Virus record (IMG/VR): IMGVR_UViG_3300023106_000016
Span: 1-43,593 of that record
DNA: 43,593 bases
Source: a virus
Reading direction: 5' to 3' (one strand)
Below, in pieces: positions 3,493 through 42,983 of this stretch. The notes under the pieces are model-generated. The model saw only the letters and a program-made list of their open reading frames with translations, did no database searches and had not been told where the DNA came from. Made by a program: the position numbers and the translations under genes. Each line of letters begins with the position of its first letter. Positions within the stretch are counted from its first letter, which is position 1.

Positions 3493-5430
3493 TTAATTTC
3501 CTGTTATTATAAAATAATCAACTGTTCTGGCATCTGAAGGTGAACTACTATTAATTGTGAATCCAACTCCTACATTTTTTGTAATTGTTAGATAACCGGC
3601 AGATGTTGTACCTATCCCGGTTAGGAATATTCGGCTTGTTGCTGTAATATTTGTATTTGAAACTGTAACAGTACCAGATCCATTAAGTGTAGCTGTACCA
3701 CTCATAGCATTTGTACCCTCTTTAATAGTTAAACCATTGCCAGCAGCGCTTAAAACCACATTGCCCGTTACTTCTATCCTGCCGTTAAATCCTGCTGCGT
3801 AGTTATCCGAAAGTGTTGCATTAGTTCCAGCAATTGGAGCATTAAAATAGTTCCCGTAAGATTTGGCAATGGTTGAAGTTGCTGTGAAATTATAAGTGGT
3901 AGGCCGCCAATCGTTTTCTTTTTGAAGTGCGATTGCGCCATTTAACCAGGTGCGCGAACCTCCATCGTAAATAAATCCACTGATAGCAGCCGAGGAGTTT
4001 TGCCCCGTGTTATTTGGCTTCGTTAAGACAAAGGAAGGTGAGTTCCCTGAACTTACCGCATTAGGAGCAAAATCTATCCTGCCGGTCCCAATGGCTAATC
4101 GCGCAACGAATCCATCAGCATTTCTTGTAAAGAAACTTATTCTACCATATGAGTTAGAAACATCACTAAGTTGAAACCCCATGCCTGCATTTGCAGTTCC
4201 TGTAGATGAAAGATTAACAATTTGAGACCAGCTATTCAATGTAGTGGATCCGTTTGTAATTCTTATGGCATCCAAATTGGCAGCCGAACCGAATGATGTA
4301 GCATTACTTAATTTGTTTATTAAAATACCTCCAGTTGTACCCAATGCATAACTATTTGTAATTGTAGCATTATTTCCAGCTAATGGAGCGCTCATATAAT
4401 TACCATAAGCCGTATTAACTACAGAATTACCTAAAAAATCATATTGAGCTGGCAACCATAAATTCTCAATTTGAGGATCAATTATATTTCCAGTTTGCCA
4501 TGTTCGTCTTGGGCCTTGATGTACCCATCCTGAAATTGCAGTAGCCGCAGTTTGATTAGTGTTATCAGGCGTAACCCAATTAAAATTCCTTACAGCCCCA
4601 CTTGTTGATGCAGCTAAATTAGTATATAAACTATTATATCTTACATAAAAACGAAGTAAACCGCCAACTGCCAAACCGGAAGAAAAATCACTTTCTAATG
4701 CCGTTTCGTTTAATGTGGTATTTATCCATGTAACGCTATTATAAATAGAATTACCCAAAACACGATATCCGGCAGTTGTCATGTGTAATCCATCTGAACT
4801 ATATGCTGGAAGTAAGGCATTTGGATTCATTGGATCGGCTAAAGCAGTATAAGGATCAACTACATAATCTACGTTTATAGCTGTGTTTTTAATCCAATTG
4901 TTAATATTTTGCTGATTAGTTAAAACGCTTCCAACTGCATTCCTTGGTGTTATAGTTACTGCCACTACTTTTATACCAGCATTATGAGCCCATGTATACA
5001 TCGTTTGTAAACATGATTTTGTAGTATCAACTGGTAATGCCTGTGTGAGATCATTAGTACCTCCCATTATAACCACATAGTTTGAAGCTCTGTTAAAAAT
5101 AACCTGCCTTACAAAACGAGCACGCATTTGAATAGTATTATCTCCACTAACTCCAAAATTGTAAGTGGTCCAATTGGCGTTTTTTAAGCTTAGCAAGCTA
5201 TCAACTCTTTGTATATAAGTTCCTTCCAATGTTAAGCTATTACCCATGAAAGCTACATTGTTTACGGGTCTAATCCTAGATCCTGTACTTGCCCATTTAG
5301 TAGTTAACCCATTTGTAGTTAAGAATTTCCCTGATTGGCCTGTTTGAGAAGGCAATGGAGGATTAACAGGAGTTACTTGTGCAACTGTGTAAAAACTTAA
5401 AAATGATAATAATATAATTAATTTTTTCAT
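3493..5430 (-). CDS. Tail fibre/spike with SGNH (GDSL-like) hydrolase domain and signal peptide
   Basis: 645 residues. Residues 1-18 form a classical signal peptide ending in A-Q (MKKLIILLSFLSFYTVAQ). Residues 27-46 carry the QTGQSGKFLTTNGL motif common in phage fibres. Residues about 55-235 are an SGNH hydrolase: GNSL with nucleophile S65, a G-rich block at 92-97, GGTND with N126, and DGLHMT with D213 and H216. It probably deacetylates or de-esterifies a surface glycan. The C-terminal half holds an imperfect duplication (around residues 300-385 and 485-560, each with AISG, RTW, YGNY and AGxNAT) and ends in a NTxITATSRIFLT-type beta head known from other tail fibres. All catalytic residues are present. 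Substrate unknown. Confidence 0.85.
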   Translation of the reverse strand: MKKLIILLSFLSFYTVAQVTPVNPPLPSQTGQSGKFLTTNGLTTKWASTGSRIRPVNNVAFMGNSLTLEGTYIQRVDSLLSLKNANWTTYNFGVSGDNTIQMRARFVRQVIFNRASNYVVIMGGTNDLTQALPVDTTKSCLQTMYTWAHNAGIKVVAVTITPRNAVGSVLTNQQNINNWIKNTAINVDYVVDPYTALADPMNPNALLPAYSSDGLHMTTAGYRVLGNSIYNSVTWINTTLNETALESDFSSGLAVGGLLRFYVRYNSLYTNLAASTSGAVRNFNWVTPDNTNQTAATAISGWVHQGPRRTWQTGNIIDPQIENLWLPAQYDFLGNSVVNTAYGNYMSAPLAGNNATITNSYALGTTGGILINKLSNATSFGSAANLDAIRITNGSTTLNSWSQIVNLSSTGTANAGMGFQLSDVSNSYGRISFFTRNADGFVARLAIGTGRIDFAPNAVSSGNSPSFVLTKPNNTGQNSSAAISGFIYDGGSRTWLNGAIALQKENDWRPTTYNFTATSTIAKSYGNYFNAPIAGTNATLSDNYAAGFNGRIEVTGNVVLSAAGNGLTIKEGTNAMSGTATLNGSGTVTVSNTNITATSRIFLTGIGTTSAGYLTITKNVGVGFTINSSSPSDARTVDYFIITGN

Positions 5431-30029: not shown

Positions 30030-31472
30030 TTACTTAATTATTATATCAGCGTAATTTAGTGTGGTATCTGCTATAATATGGTTCCACCAACCATACTTCC
30101 ATTTTGAGTACCCGGCAAATTCTTTTAAAAATGATTCGCCTTTTTGTTTTGCTATTCGAGTTGCAAAAGGTTTTTTATTTGTCATTTGAACGTATTGAAA
30201 CAATTCAAGGGCTGACAAGGTACTAATTTTTCTGCCTCGTAAATTATTATATTTAGCCGTAATTTCAACAAGTTCCGTTTCTTTTATTTCCTCTTCAGTA
30301 GGTTCATGCATTGTTATTTCTCCGCATTCGGGACACGGATTTGTTTTAACATGCATCATGAAACCACATTTTTTACATATTTTAATAGGCGCTACACCTT
30401 CTTTTTTTGGTTTTTGGTTCCACATATCATGCCATGGATGCTCATAGTTCCATGGCTTATGTCGTGTACCGTTACGGCCGTAATCAACAATATTAAACTT
30501 ATTTTTACCTGGGCTTAATCGGCTACCACGTCCACACATTTGAGCATAAAGCGGTAGTGATAATGTTGCTCGGTTAAGCATAATTAAATCAACAGCAGGA
30601 CAATCAAAACCTTTTGTAAGTGATGCAACAGACACACATATATTATTTGATCCGTTAGTAAATTCAAACAATTCATAATCTGTATTTTTGTTTTTGCTAT
30701 GGCATTCAGAAACATTATAGTTTAGTATTCTGAGTTTTGTAACAACATCTTGACAGTGTTTAATTGAAGCGCAAAATATCATGCATTTATGAAACTTAAA
30801 TAGCTTTAAATCTTCAATTAAGCCGTCAAAAACTTCAGCTTTTTCAAAAACAGCCTCTTGGCTTGATTCAGTATAATCCCCGGTACTTGATTTTTCAAGC
30901 TTTGAAAGATCTGCTACCTGCCTCTCATAATGATAATAAGGGCTTAAGAATCCATTTTCAACTAATTCCTGTGGCTGTGGGCCTATAACAATAGACTTAT
31001 ATAATTCAGGTAGGTGTTTAGCTTTACGATAGTCAGGTGTAGCAGTAAAACCTATTAAATAGGCATCTGATAACTGTTGTAAAAGTTTTGTAGGGGTTCC
31101 AATATGGGCTTCATCTGTAATTATTAAAAGGTGTTTACCTAAATTATTAAATTGATCAATTAATCCTTTACGTTTAGCTAATGTTTGAGCCATGGCAACA
31201 TAGATTTTATTTGGTTCAACATAAAATTCTTTTATGCCATCACCAATATTAATTGTGTCGCCAATTTCTTTATGAATTTGACTGTAAATGCTTGTCGATT
31301 CTGAAATAATTAAAACGGTTCTTTTATGTTCAATCGAACCCCTTGCAATTGAGATAAACACCTTTGATTTTCCTGATCCGGTAGCCGCACATGCTAACAC
31401 TTTTTCATTTAACTTGATACTTGATCGAATATCTTGTATAAATTTTTCCTGGTATGGTCTTAGTTTTATCAT
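30030..31472 (-). CDS. SF2 DNA helicase (ResIII/SSL2-like) with C-terminal zinc ribbon
   Basis: 480 residues. Motif Q/I: LRPYQEKFIQDI, then AATGSGKS (29-36); II: ITDEAHIG (DEAH 120-123); III: GFTATP (141-146); VI: QMCGRGSRLSPGK. After the helicase core comes a zinc ribbon (CKKCGF...CPECG, about residues 370-390). Similar phage helicases open origins or remodel recombination intermediates. The gene starts 2 bases after the 31474-31794 gene and is under leader E3. Confidence 0.88.
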   Translation of the reverse strand: MIKLRPYQEKFIQDIRSSIKLNEKVLACAATGSGKSKVFISIARGSIEHKRTVLIISESTSIYSQIHKEIGDTINIGDGIKEFYVEPNKIYVAMAQTLAKRKGLIDQFNNLGKHLLIITDEAHIGTPTKLLQQLSDAYLIGFTATPDYRKAKHLPELYKSIVIGPQPQELVENGFLSPYYHYERQVADLSKLEKSSTGDYTESSQEAVFEKAEVFDGLIEDLKLFKFHKCMIFCASIKHCQDVVTKLRILNYNVSECHSKNKNTDYELFEFTNGSNNICVSVASLTKGFDCPAVDLIMLNRATLSLPLYAQMCGRGSRLSPGKNKFNIVDYGRNGTRHKPWNYEHPWHDMWNQKPKKEGVAPIKICKKCGFMMHVKTNPCPECGEITMHEPTEEEIKETELVEITAKYNNLRGRKISTLSALELFQYVQMTNKKPFATRIAKQKGESFLKEFAGYSKWKYGWWNHIIADTTLNYADIIIK

Positions 31473-31969: not shown

Positions 31970-32203
31970 CTAAAACAATTTTTGTTGGTTTTTTATATCT
32001 ATTTCGATTTGAGATCTACCGATTAATTTACGCTTTTTTAAACCTAATTGTTTAAGGCTTTCATCGCTCCAAATCTTTCTCATGTGGCCGTATTGGCCTG
32101 GATTGTTAGAAGATAAAATTTTCTTAATTACTTTTATTTCCTTACATTCGTTTTCCTTTATAATCTCTGCAATCTGTGGGGCGTAATATTCTCTCCAGCT
32201 CAT
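31970..32203 (-). CDS. Small basic protein with C-terminal QQKLF
   Basis: 77 residues, basic (SLKQLGLKKRKLIGRSQIEIDI). It ends in QQKLF, the same five residues that end the DNA methyltransferase just upstream. QxxLF fits the beta sliding-clamp binding motif. Its start overlaps the methyltransferase stop by one base (TAATG-type coupling). The fold is helical; possible DNA-binding or clamp-recruited accessory protein. No family recognised. Confidence 0.6.
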   Translation of the reverse strand: MSWREYYAPQIAEIIKENECKEIKVIKKILSSNNPGQYGHMRKIWSDESLKQLGLKKRKLIGRSQIEIDIKNQQKLF

Positions 32204-32865
32204 TAGAATAATTTTTGTTGGTTAGTATGCTGTTCAATGCGTTTCATTGCAGCGTTGTAATAGTCTTCGTTTATTTCATATCCAATAAAATCTCTATTTA
32301 AGTTGTGGCAAGCTATCGCAGTAGTGCCTGATCCAGAAAAACAATCAAGAATTAAATCACCAGGTTTACTGCTTTTTTCAATTAAGAATTCCATCAAATT
32401 AACTGGTTTTTGAGTAGGATGTAGCTCGTTATCAGTTCTTTTAGCTTTAATAATGTTTGAGTGCCTACCATTATTTAATTTCTTATTTCCATTAGAAATA
32501 AATAAACACATTTCATATTTAGGGGCGTAATCCCCATAAAGATCACCCATGCCAGTATTATTCTTTTCCCAAATCAATATATTTTTAACATTAAACACGC
32601 TTTCAAATTCTTTTTTAAAAACATCAACATTATGCCAGCTGCAGAAAATATACAAATGCGCATCTTCTTTAGACACTCTTTTCAAATCTAAAACCCAACC
32701 AGGAAGCCACTCTAAATTAGAATCATTTTCTATTTTTATGTGTTTTTCTTTTCTATAATTTGATTGAAAAGACATTCCATAAGGTGGATCAGTAGCAACT
32801 ACATCTATAGAACCTGTTGATACCTCATGTAAACCAAAACATGATCCTTTTATTAATTTTATCAT
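32203..32865 (-). CDS. DNA adenine-N6 or cytosine-N4 methyltransferase
   Basis: 220 residues. DPPY (26-29, in VVATDPPYGMSF) precedes the SAM-binding LDCFSGSGTTAIAC (FSGSGTT 174-180), so motif IV comes before motif I: the beta-class order. HPTQKPVNLMEFLI is the typical segment before motif I. No recognition-domain extension, so short target. No restriction nuclease adjacent, so probably an orphan methylase protecting phage DNA from host restriction. The C-terminus NQQKLF is a likely clamp-binding tail. The ATG sits only 5 bases after the U-run of leader E4's terminator. Confidence 0.9.
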   Translation of the reverse strand: MIKLIKGSCFGLHEVSTGSIDVVATDPPYGMSFQSNYRKEKHIKIENDSNLEWLPGWVLDLKRVSKEDAHLYIFCSWHNVDVFKKEFESVFNVKNILIWEKNNTGMGDLYGDYAPKYEMCLFISNGNKKLNNGRHSNIIKAKRTDNELHPTQKPVNLMEFLIEKSSKPGDLILDCFSGSGTTAIACHNLNRDFIGYEINEDYYNAAMKRIEQHTNQQKLF

Positions 32866-38487: not shown

Positions 38488-39399
38488 TTATAATTTACTA
38501 TATTGTTCAATTGCTTTAAAAATCTGATATGCCACCTGTGGAACTATTGCGTTTCCTGCCGCTTTAATGGACTCTGTTCGCCAATCTGAAAAGGTAATTC
38601 CGTCCAATCGGGAGGAAATCCCATCATTTCCAGAACAAATGGCGGGTTGAGTTGGAAATTCTGACCAATCTGTCTCTGGATGTTTTCGTGTAAATTTACT
38701 CCCCGGGAGTGATTCTTTCTGGTTTTGAACGCTTCCGAATGCTGTTTGAATCCGCTCCTGTAATCTCTGGCCGTTGGAGTCGGAAGTAACCCCTGAAATG
38801 CAAAGTGTGTTAGACTCATTGAATGAAATCCCACCTCCGACCAGGTTGCATCCTTCCGTAGATTCTTTATTCCCGATGAATCCATCGCTGCTGGCGTTGG
38901 TAATAAGCCGCGATATGAACCAGATTCGGTCCCGTCTGTGGGGAGCGTTGACACCTCCAGCTGGAAGTAAAAACGGTAACACTTCGTAGCCCTCAGTTTC
39001 CAGGTCAGACTGCACTTCGTCGAATACCACCCCTCCATTCCAATTAGTAAGCCCGCGAACGTTTTCGCCCACAACGTAGCGCGGTTGTATTTCCCGAACT
39101 GCTCTAAGCATCTCCGGCCAGAGATGTCTTGCGTCTTCTTTTCCAAGTCGTTTACCGGCTGAGCTATATGGTTGACATGGGAATCCACCTGTAAGAATGT
39201 CAATTCTGTTTGCATAATTTTTAAAATCTGTTTTAGTTATGTCTGTAAAACTTTCGGCGCTAGGCCAGTAGTGTTTCAATACTTTTTGCCCAAAAGGATT
39301 CCATTCGCAATGAAATTGGTTGTCCCATCCCATCCACTCAGCCGCTAAATCAAAGCCGCCTATTCCGGAGAATAATGATCCGTGTGTCATTATTCCCAA
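38488..39399 (-). CDS. DNA cytosine-C5 methyltransferase
   Basis: 303 residues. Motif I SLFSGIGGFDLA (8-19), motif IV GGFPCQPYS with catalytic C75, motif VI GENVRGL (E112), motif VIII RDRIWFIS, motif X AAGNAIVPQVAYQIF at the C-terminus. All catalytic blocks present. The variable target-recognition region lies between VIII and IX. Starts may be at M1 or M4 (MTHGSLF is the family norm). No restriction partner. Another open frame of 223 codons overlaps most of it (38544-39215). Confidence 0.92.
   Translation of the reverse strand: MGIMTHGSLFSGIGGFDLAAEWMGWDNQFHCEWNPFGQKVLKHYWPSAESFTDITKTDFKNYANRIDILTGGFPCQPYSSAGKRLGKEDARHLWPEMLRAVREIQPRYVVGENVRGLTNWNGGVVFDEVQSDLETEGYEVLPFLLPAGGVNAPHRRDRIWFISRLITNASSDGFIGNKESTEGCNLVGGGISFNESNTLCISGVTSDSNGQRLQERIQTAFGSVQNQKESLPGSKFTRKHPETDWSEFPTQPAICSGNDGISSRLDGITFSDWRTESIKAAGNAIVPQVAYQIFKAIEQYSKL
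38544..39215 (-). CDS. Overlapping reading frame inside the C5 methyltransferase gene, likely coding
   Basis: 223 codons in the +1 frame of the methyltransferase, starting at ATG 39215 over motif IV. It is not a random shadow: it has structured repeats of LLPTPxARD/AAMD (LLPTPAAMDSSG, LLPTPTARDYRSG), SLTWKLRATKCYRFYFQLEV, LLIGMEGWYSTKC and a closing MMGFPPDWTELPF. Proteins with exactly this pattern (LIGMEGWxSTKC...LTWK, LLPTPxARD, MGFPxxWTELPF) occur in Bacteroidota genomes, from memory, next to or over C5 methylases. Whether both frames are translated must be tested. It has no obvious own promoter. Confidence 0.5.
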   Translation of the reverse strand: MQTELTFLQVDSHVNHIAQPVNDLEKKTQDISGRRCLEQFGKYNRATLWAKTFAGLLIGMEGWYSTKCSLTWKLRATKCYRFYFQLEVSTLPTDGTESGSYRGLLPTPAAMDSSGIKNLRKDATWSEVGFHSMSLTHFAFQGLLPTPTARDYRSGFKQHSEAFKTRKNHSRGVNLHENIQRQIGQNFQLNPPFVLEMMGFPPDWTELPFQIGEQSPLKRQETQ

Positions 39400-42059: not shown

Positions 42060-42983
42060 TTAGAATAGATCAGGTTTCTTATTTTTAACTTCCGCAAAAA
42101 TAAAATGCATTAATCTTTTAAAGTCAATGCTCGGGTTTTTGTGCTCCTTAACGAAATCCCAACAATCTTCTTTTACAACAGAATAATAAACAGTGTTCAA
42201 TAACCTTGGAATCATTTTACTATTCCACCCGGATTCGTTTTCTATTTTTGAATGTTCTTTTTCTACAAGCGCAGCAGTTACATATTTCATAGCAATCTCT
42301 TGTTCAACTAATTTATTTCCTGTAATTGTAGAGGCACCCATAACTTTTGAGTGTTGCTCTTTAAATTCAGATGTTACGATCTTAGCCCACGTTTGGCGGT
42401 TATATTTGTTTTTGAAGTCATAGTTTTTAATTACAATACCTTCACCAGCGCCTTTGCCGTCTTCAATAAGAAATACATTTTTACATAACTGATTAATAAA
42501 CTGTTCATAAGACCCATTATTAATTATACTTATTGGCGGTATGTAGTTGATTTGATGTTTTTCTAAAAATGGCTTATAGGCCAAGTAGTGAAGATGCTTT
42601 AATTCATCATCCCCATCATGTAGAATTTCATCTTTATGTTTATCCACGCAGACATCGAACACATAAAAGTTTCTCCAGGTATCTTGGCGATACGTTTTAA
42701 GGGAATGAGGCACAAGCCACTCCCCAAACAATCTGTGTTCCGGAAACTCCTTAAGATAGTTTATGATATTTTCCTGCCTTAAAACCCATTCATAAAATCC
42801 AGCATTATCTTTATCTAAAGATAAATGTTTTGTTCTGCTGCCAGCTTGTATTTTTCCTTCATGCATCCATACAGACGCATTTGTACCATCTATTTTAGGG
42901 AACACATAGCATTCACCTAATTCAATGTTTTGCACCTCAGTTGTGCCAAGTCTCTCTAAGTGTTGATATTTTTTAAAGCTCAT
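42060..42983 (-). CDS. RNA ligase (T4 Rnl2-like nucleotidyltransferase)
   Basis: 307 residues. Motif I FPKIDGTNAS (lysine nucleophile K30), then RLFGEWLVPH (motif III area), EGIVIKNYDF (motif IV) and WAKIV (motif V), in the correct order. Without the extra C-terminal domains of DNA ligases, and ending in a helical domain (KNKKPDLF), it fits the Rnl2-type RNA ligases of phages. These reseal tRNAs cleaved by host anticodon nucleases or edit nicked RNA. No polynucleotide kinase is visible in the window, so 5'-phosphate and 3'-OH ends are presumed. It is second in the unit from promoter P1, after the repeat gene. Confidence 0.85.
   Translation of the reverse strand: MSFKKYQHLERLGTTEVQNIELGECYVFPKIDGTNASVWMHEGKIQAGSRTKHLSLDKDNAGFYEWVLRQENIINYLKEFPEHRLFGEWLVPHSLKTYRQDTWRNFYVFDVCVDKHKDEILHDGDDELKHLHYLAYKPFLEKHQINYIPPISIINNGSYEQFINQLCKNVFLIEDGKGAGEGIVIKNYDFKNKYNRQTWAKIVTSEFKEQHSKVMGASTITGNKLVEQEIAMKYVTAALVEKEHSKIENESGWNSKMIPRLLNTVYYSVVKEDCWDFVKEHKNPSIDFKRLMHFIFAEVKNKKPDLF

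Follow-up and report, generated by a model that had tools for sequence, protein, structure and literature searches.

A phage C5-cytosine methyltransferase probably built from two chains encoded in overlapping reading frames

A C5-cytosine DNA methyltransferase gene of a phage contains a long second reading frame on the same strand, and both frames are under selection. We consider it most likely (probability about 0.82) that the locus specifies a two-polypeptide enzyme from one DNA stretch read in two frames, the translation of the nested frame being deduced, because frame 0 has motifs I-VIII and X without motif IX, and the nested +1 frame carries motif IX. Rather than being an unrelated passenger, the nested protein probably supplies the half of the enzyme that frame 0 lacks, with motif IX and target recognition.

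A reading frame nested in a methyltransferase gene

The window, that is, the whole stretch of DNA analysed, is a 43.6-kb virus record carrying phage portal, terminase, tape-measure, and replication genes. We refer to the frame 0 product of the methyltransferase gene as the alpha chain and to the nested +1 product as the beta chain. Their features are as follows:

38488-39399, minus strand: alpha chain, C5-cytosine methyltransferase frame, 303 aa (PF00145, phrog_363)
38544-39215, minus strand: beta chain, nested +1-frame protein, 223 aa, ATG start (phrog_1008, alignments, selection tests)
39355-39372, minus strand: alpha motif I (FSGIGG)
39172-39189, minus strand: alpha motif IV (GGFPCQ), just downstream of the beta start
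39058-39069, minus strand: alpha motif VI (GENV)
38926-38946, minus strand: alpha motif VIII (APHRRDR)
38605-38916, minus strand: alpha linker from motif VIII to motif X, of disorder-like composition and poorly conserved, sharing its DNA with the beta LPTP modules
38533-38556, minus strand: alpha motif X (GNAIVPQV), at the end of the overlap
38949-39029, minus strand: beta WYSTKCSLTWK...FYFQLEVS block, predicted beta-hairpin, overlapping alpha motifs VI-VIII
38790-38906, minus strand: beta LPTP module 1, 39 aa
38652-38789, minus strand: beta LPTP module 2, 46 aa
38589-38651, minus strand: beta motif IX-like block, LNPPFVLEMMGFPPDWTELPF, whose homologous segment stands in frame before motif X in fused relatives

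The alpha frame begins with a TTG at 39399, the ATG at 39390 being the more likely start. The beta frame, which runs from stop to stop over 38544-39236, lies entirely within the alpha gene in register +1 relative to alpha and covers it from motif IV through motif X. A preliminary description of this DNA had reported a 223-codon second frame inside the methyltransferase gene; it is present exactly at 38544-39215 on the minus strand, in the +1 register and with an ATG, and the sequence features attributed to it (LTWK, LLPTPxAxD blocks, of which there are two, and MGFPPDWTELPF) were all recovered. We found no Shine-Dalgarno sequence ahead of the window beta ATG; its absence is common in Bacteroidota. 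The G+C content of the methylase gene (38488-39399) is 0.45, and 0.48 in the overlap, versus 0.345 for the window, reflecting either dual-frame constraint or recent acquisition.

The flanking genes that were tested did not include an identifiable restriction gene. Elsewhere, the window encodes a second DNA methyltransferase (32203-32865; phrog_67, 1.6e-65) near a DNA helicase gene (30030-31472), a PHROG RNA ligase match (42060-42983; 5.2e-51), and, near the structural genes, a large protein with lipase/esterase-like and polysaccharide deacetylase-like PHROG matches (3493-5430).

Both frames are under selection

The longest +1 stretch of the alpha gene spans 230 codons, a length reached by one in 20,000 synonymous shuffles (a null that preserves protein and codon usage, not codon context) and by two in 20,000 codon permutations. 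In 15 other long genes of the window, the longest +1 stretch does not exceed 65 codons. The pattern extends to the relatives of the gene: the +1 frame is stop-free over the matched stretch in 70 of 83 non-redundant homologues, with 0.04 expected under synonymous codon shuffling. The remaining 13 contain 13 +1 stops in total, which we attribute to alignments extending beyond the beta stop codon. The +2 frame of the same 83 homologues has about 18 stops per gene, the same as the null. Similarity of the encoded beta to the window protein ranges from 43 to 265 bits in these homologues, compared with shuffle maxima of 29-125.

We observed a marked reduction of synonymous change within the overlap. 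Measured over 46 independent pairs, the rate at four-fold sites is 0.37 and 0.39 in the N-terminal and C-terminal single-frame flanks, respectively, versus 0.165 over motifs IV-VIII and 0.099 in the MGFP segment. The overall ratio of overlap to flanks is 0.40 (95% interval 0.34-0.46), a 2.5-fold reduction. In the flanks, p3/p1 stands at 2.4-2.7, a third-position excess that disappears in the MGFP segment (0.79), as expected where the +1 frame dominates. Moreover, 82 of the 83 genes (18.6 expected) retain an open ATG ahead of the conserved part of beta, with the exact start differing between relatives. True dual coding, one of the two readings offered in the preliminary description, is thus supported by synonymous-site constraint, codon-position profile, start-codon conservation, and a register shared across phyla (see below). 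What had been named there as counting against it was frequent +1 stops in homologous methyltransferases and a lack of synonymous constraint; the outcome was the opposite, with close homologues free of +1 stops and synonymous change constrained.

Two explanations that deny the +1 frame a present function were weighed against these data. That it is a chance open frame produced by the composition of the methylase gene we regard as next to impossible: the raised G+C of the gene would lengthen random frames, but shuffles preserving protein and codon usage attain such a length about once in 20,000 for the window alone, and a profile match across phyla cannot be chance. The other reading offered earlier, an unused remnant of an ancestor in which the enzyme was split or fused, is hardly more credible. 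The frame does resemble segments of fused enzymes, and fused mycobacteriophage genes retain a shortened +1 remnant; yet relics gain stops, whereas 70 of the 83 divergent relatives are stop-free and show depressed synonymous change. With both frames under selection, the fossil reading was dropped, and the shuffle and synonymous-site tests led us to reject chance and composition as well.

Motif IX and the nested chain

The window alpha chain matches PF00145 with an E-value of 3.6e-43, covering only profile positions 2-161 of 324, and phrog_363 with 4.5e-67. It has the motifs of the PF00145 family, I, IV (PCQ), VI (ENV), VIII, and X; motif IX is absent from it, and its C-terminus reads DGISSRLDGITFSDWRTESIKAAGNAIVP. 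Order-promoting residues make up 19% of the alpha linker versus 35% of motifs I-VIII (mean over relatives). We examined how motif IX is distributed in 79 PF00145 loci from Bacillota, Bacteroidota, and Pseudomonadota. None of the five loci with a nested beta has a frame-0 motif IX. The methylases without a nested frame are canonical single-chain enzymes: 44 of these 74 fit a strict in-frame motif IX pattern, and in most of the other 30 the motif is recognizable by eye. No locus among the 79 has both a nested beta and a frame-0 motif IX, showing that the motif is distributed complementarily between beta and frame 0.

The conserved parts of beta are a block with SGxxC and WxSxxCxLTWK, one to five LPTPxAxD modules, and LNPxFVxEMMGFPxDW. 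Searches with beta gave no family match in Pfam or NCBIfam, and a profile search of solved structures returned nothing. An AlphaFold model of beta alone, built with 33 homologues, was poor (pLDDT 54, pTM 0.25). The window beta does match PHROG 1008, 'DNA methyltransferase' (3.6e-22). This family also matches the C-terminus of fused relatives (1e-64), the chain of split ones (1.7e-100), and nested proteins of Paenibacillus (9.7e-73) and E. coli (2.1e-27).

The fused and split relatives place the beta segments within the enzyme. In OldBen and prophi91-4, LPTP modules and EWMMGWPxGWVT are in frame with motifs I-VIII and continue into motif X (GNGVxPQQA), so the claim that an LPTP...MGFP pattern occurs fused to C5 methylases elsewhere held for mycobacteriophages, as LPTP...EWMMGWP. 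Most OldBen-like loci in IMG/VR are fused and the others are split; Severus and several others have a split enzyme, with motifs I-VIII in frame 0 and LPTP-IX-X on an overlapping +1 chain. One fused relative (L308) aligns to PF00145 positions 1-317 of 324. Its AlphaFold model (pTM 0.70; residues 281-350 near 90 pLDDT by block; LPTP region of low confidence) aligns over 1-361, end to end, with M.HhaI, with Z 22.6 over 242 residues. From the fused and split relatives, the alignments of L308, and common membership in PHROG 1008, we infer that the beta MGFP block is the motif IX of the enzyme; for the window beta itself, the correspondence is one of sequence and family membership.

Most of the fused OldBen-type loci (L290-L303, L309, L313) retain a shortened +1 frame that contains the LPTP modules and the N-terminal block of beta, and these loci may also encode a second product. 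In one mycobacteriophage locus (L305/L306), two C5 methylase frames follow one another: the first stops after motif VIII plus an LPTP block, and the second is a complete fused enzyme.

Two further explanations accept that the +1 frame is used. It could be translated and selected as an independent protein, such as a regulator or an anti-defence factor, that happens to overlap the methylase. This is unlikely, although the N-terminal block of beta (SGxxC, WxSxxCxLTWK) is without a recognized counterpart in canonical methylases and the database searches above found no family or structure for the protein. Against it, many mycobacteriophage enzymes carry the beta domain in one frame with motifs I-VIII and X, and in split forms this domain bears motifs IX and X; alpha is without motif IX at all five beta-bearing loci; and there is no free-standing beta among the beta-profile matches examined. 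Somewhat less likely again, ribosomes might slip into the +1 frame once past motif VIII and return to frame 0 ahead of motif X, yielding a single chain whose order, I-VIII-LPTP-IX-X, would be identical to that of the fused relatives. Such a scheme requires two programmed shifts per protein and would omit the conserved beta block that precedes the LPTP modules and overlies alpha VI-VIII; nor does it accord with the retention of the open beta ATG in nearly all homologues. We therefore favor two chains assembling into one enzyme.

Register and distribution among relatives

We collected 160 viral matches, querying with beta and alpha separately, and 80 genome loci found with the beta profile, together with phage records. 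Beta overlaps alpha in the +1 register in all 164 viral and phage loci, and in 243 of 244 when the genome loci are added; the sole exception (L234) is a broken gene. Loci retrieved by alpha alone have the same register, so the beta query is not the cause of the agreement. All 22 Bacillota and Pseudomonadota genomes having an open match encode beta in +1 over alpha. Because the Pseudomonadota relatives are GC-rich, openness of their +1 frame says little by itself, and the evidence there consists of profile matches and register. The same register is found in Lactobacillus, Paenibacillus, mycobacteriophage, and E. coli prophage genes, with nested forms in SG4, Spikelee, S-H1, Golestan, and E. coli prophages. 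A search of a plasmid collection gave only four beta-like places. Phages and bacteria belonging to several phyla share the arrangement. The overlap had been presumed rare; it is not rare in phages and prophages, and 5 of the 79 PF00145 loci examined in three phyla carry it.

LPTP modules

The 83 genes contain 207 LPTP modules, one to five per gene, with a median of 39 residues, falling into 121 types at 65% identity. Modules of the same type are found at different positions and next to many different neighbors, which indicates that they have been shuffled. By analogy with multispecific phage methylases, the modules are probably exchangeable target-recognition cassettes, the reading that we prefer; since the LPTP region is of low confidence in the fused model, the role in recognition is put forward by comparison. 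The DNA of the modules is common to both frames, and their exchange therefore rewrites the alpha linker too, which fits the disordered composition of the linker.

Comparison with known systems

The nearest precedent in layout is M.EcoHK31I, whose small chain is reportedly read from a different frame of the gene for the large chain; the window small chain, too, lies in another frame inside the large-chain gene. M.EcoHK31I (YGGCCR) is naturally split (PMC3439449), and, as summarized in PMC3404938, its large chain holds motifs I-VIII and X and its small chain motif IX. The window gene has the same motif division, layout alone being compared. Unlike M.EcoHK31I, it is apparently an orphan phage gene with LPTP modules. 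The predicted recognition domain also differs in location: that summary places it on the large chain of M.EcoHK31I, whereas the window modules are on beta and the alpha linker looks disordered. In M.AquI (CYCGRG), one chain has motifs I-VIII and the other has the distal variable region and motif IX (PMC3404938). Motif X is on the small chain of M.AquI and on alpha in the window; Severus and the L304-type relatives, with IX and X on the small chain, have the AquI-type split, the Severus type being nearer to it than the window.

Recognition cassettes of multispecific methylases are about 38-40 aa in size. The multispecific enzymes are single chains; in the window, the modules (median 39 aa in relatives) are out of frame with the catalytic part. 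Judging from titles cited in PMC8936443 and PMC12707154, the multispecific phage C5 methyltransferases (M.SPRI, phi3T, H2 type) have a variable number of cassettes between motifs VIII and IX.

PHROG 1008 brings together the window beta, the 'internal gene' proteins of Paenibacillus phages, split beta chains, and fused C-termini; the entry as shown gives the cluster name only and mentions neither dual coding nor a subunit role. We found no account of the overlap in papers on overlapping genes or Paenibacillus phages; methylases receive only a brief mention in PRFect, a paper on frameshift prediction. The motif layout is already known from M.EcoHK31I; we found no description of its breadth, of measured dual-frame selection, of module shuffling, or of the fused-split-nested series.

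Discussion

We suggest that the two chains would act as follows. Alpha, read in frame 0, would bind AdoMet and cytosine through motifs I-VIII, followed by the disorder-like linker and motif X. Beta would be translated from its own ATG in the +1 frame and would provide motif IX and the recognition region in trans. The two would assemble into one active enzyme, with both needed for activity. Given the phage setting, this enzyme would methylate phage DNA, most likely against host restriction.

More tentatively, and at somewhat less than even odds, the locus may belong to a class of phage methyltransferases that is widespread yet mostly missed by annotation, with exchangeable recognition cassettes lying out of phase with the catalytic chain and cassette number setting the count of protected sequences. 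If true, every recombined cassette must remain open in two frames simultaneously.

Gene callers usually output alpha only, and the second protein is usually missing from annotations. In Paenibacillus phage Rani, beta is annotated as 'g50 Internal gene'; in the E. coli RefSeq loci viewed, alpha is annotated and beta is absent. At one E. coli locus (ECCTRSRTH03; L325, 1-3110), RefSeq calls the prophage methylase two partial pseudogenes; frame 0 is nevertheless open across both calls (518-1730), and the +1 frame is likewise open (630-1659). Annotation may mistake dual-coded methylases for broken genes. Alpha cloned alone from such annotations would probably be an inactive enzyme, distorting methylome and restriction databases.

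Deeply conserved, long nested genes on the same strand are rarely documented in bacteria and phages. The nested methylase frame keeps one register over several phyla, with measurable selection on both frames, and together with the split and fused forms it makes up a natural series in which the passage from a single enzyme to a pair of overlapping genes can be studied.
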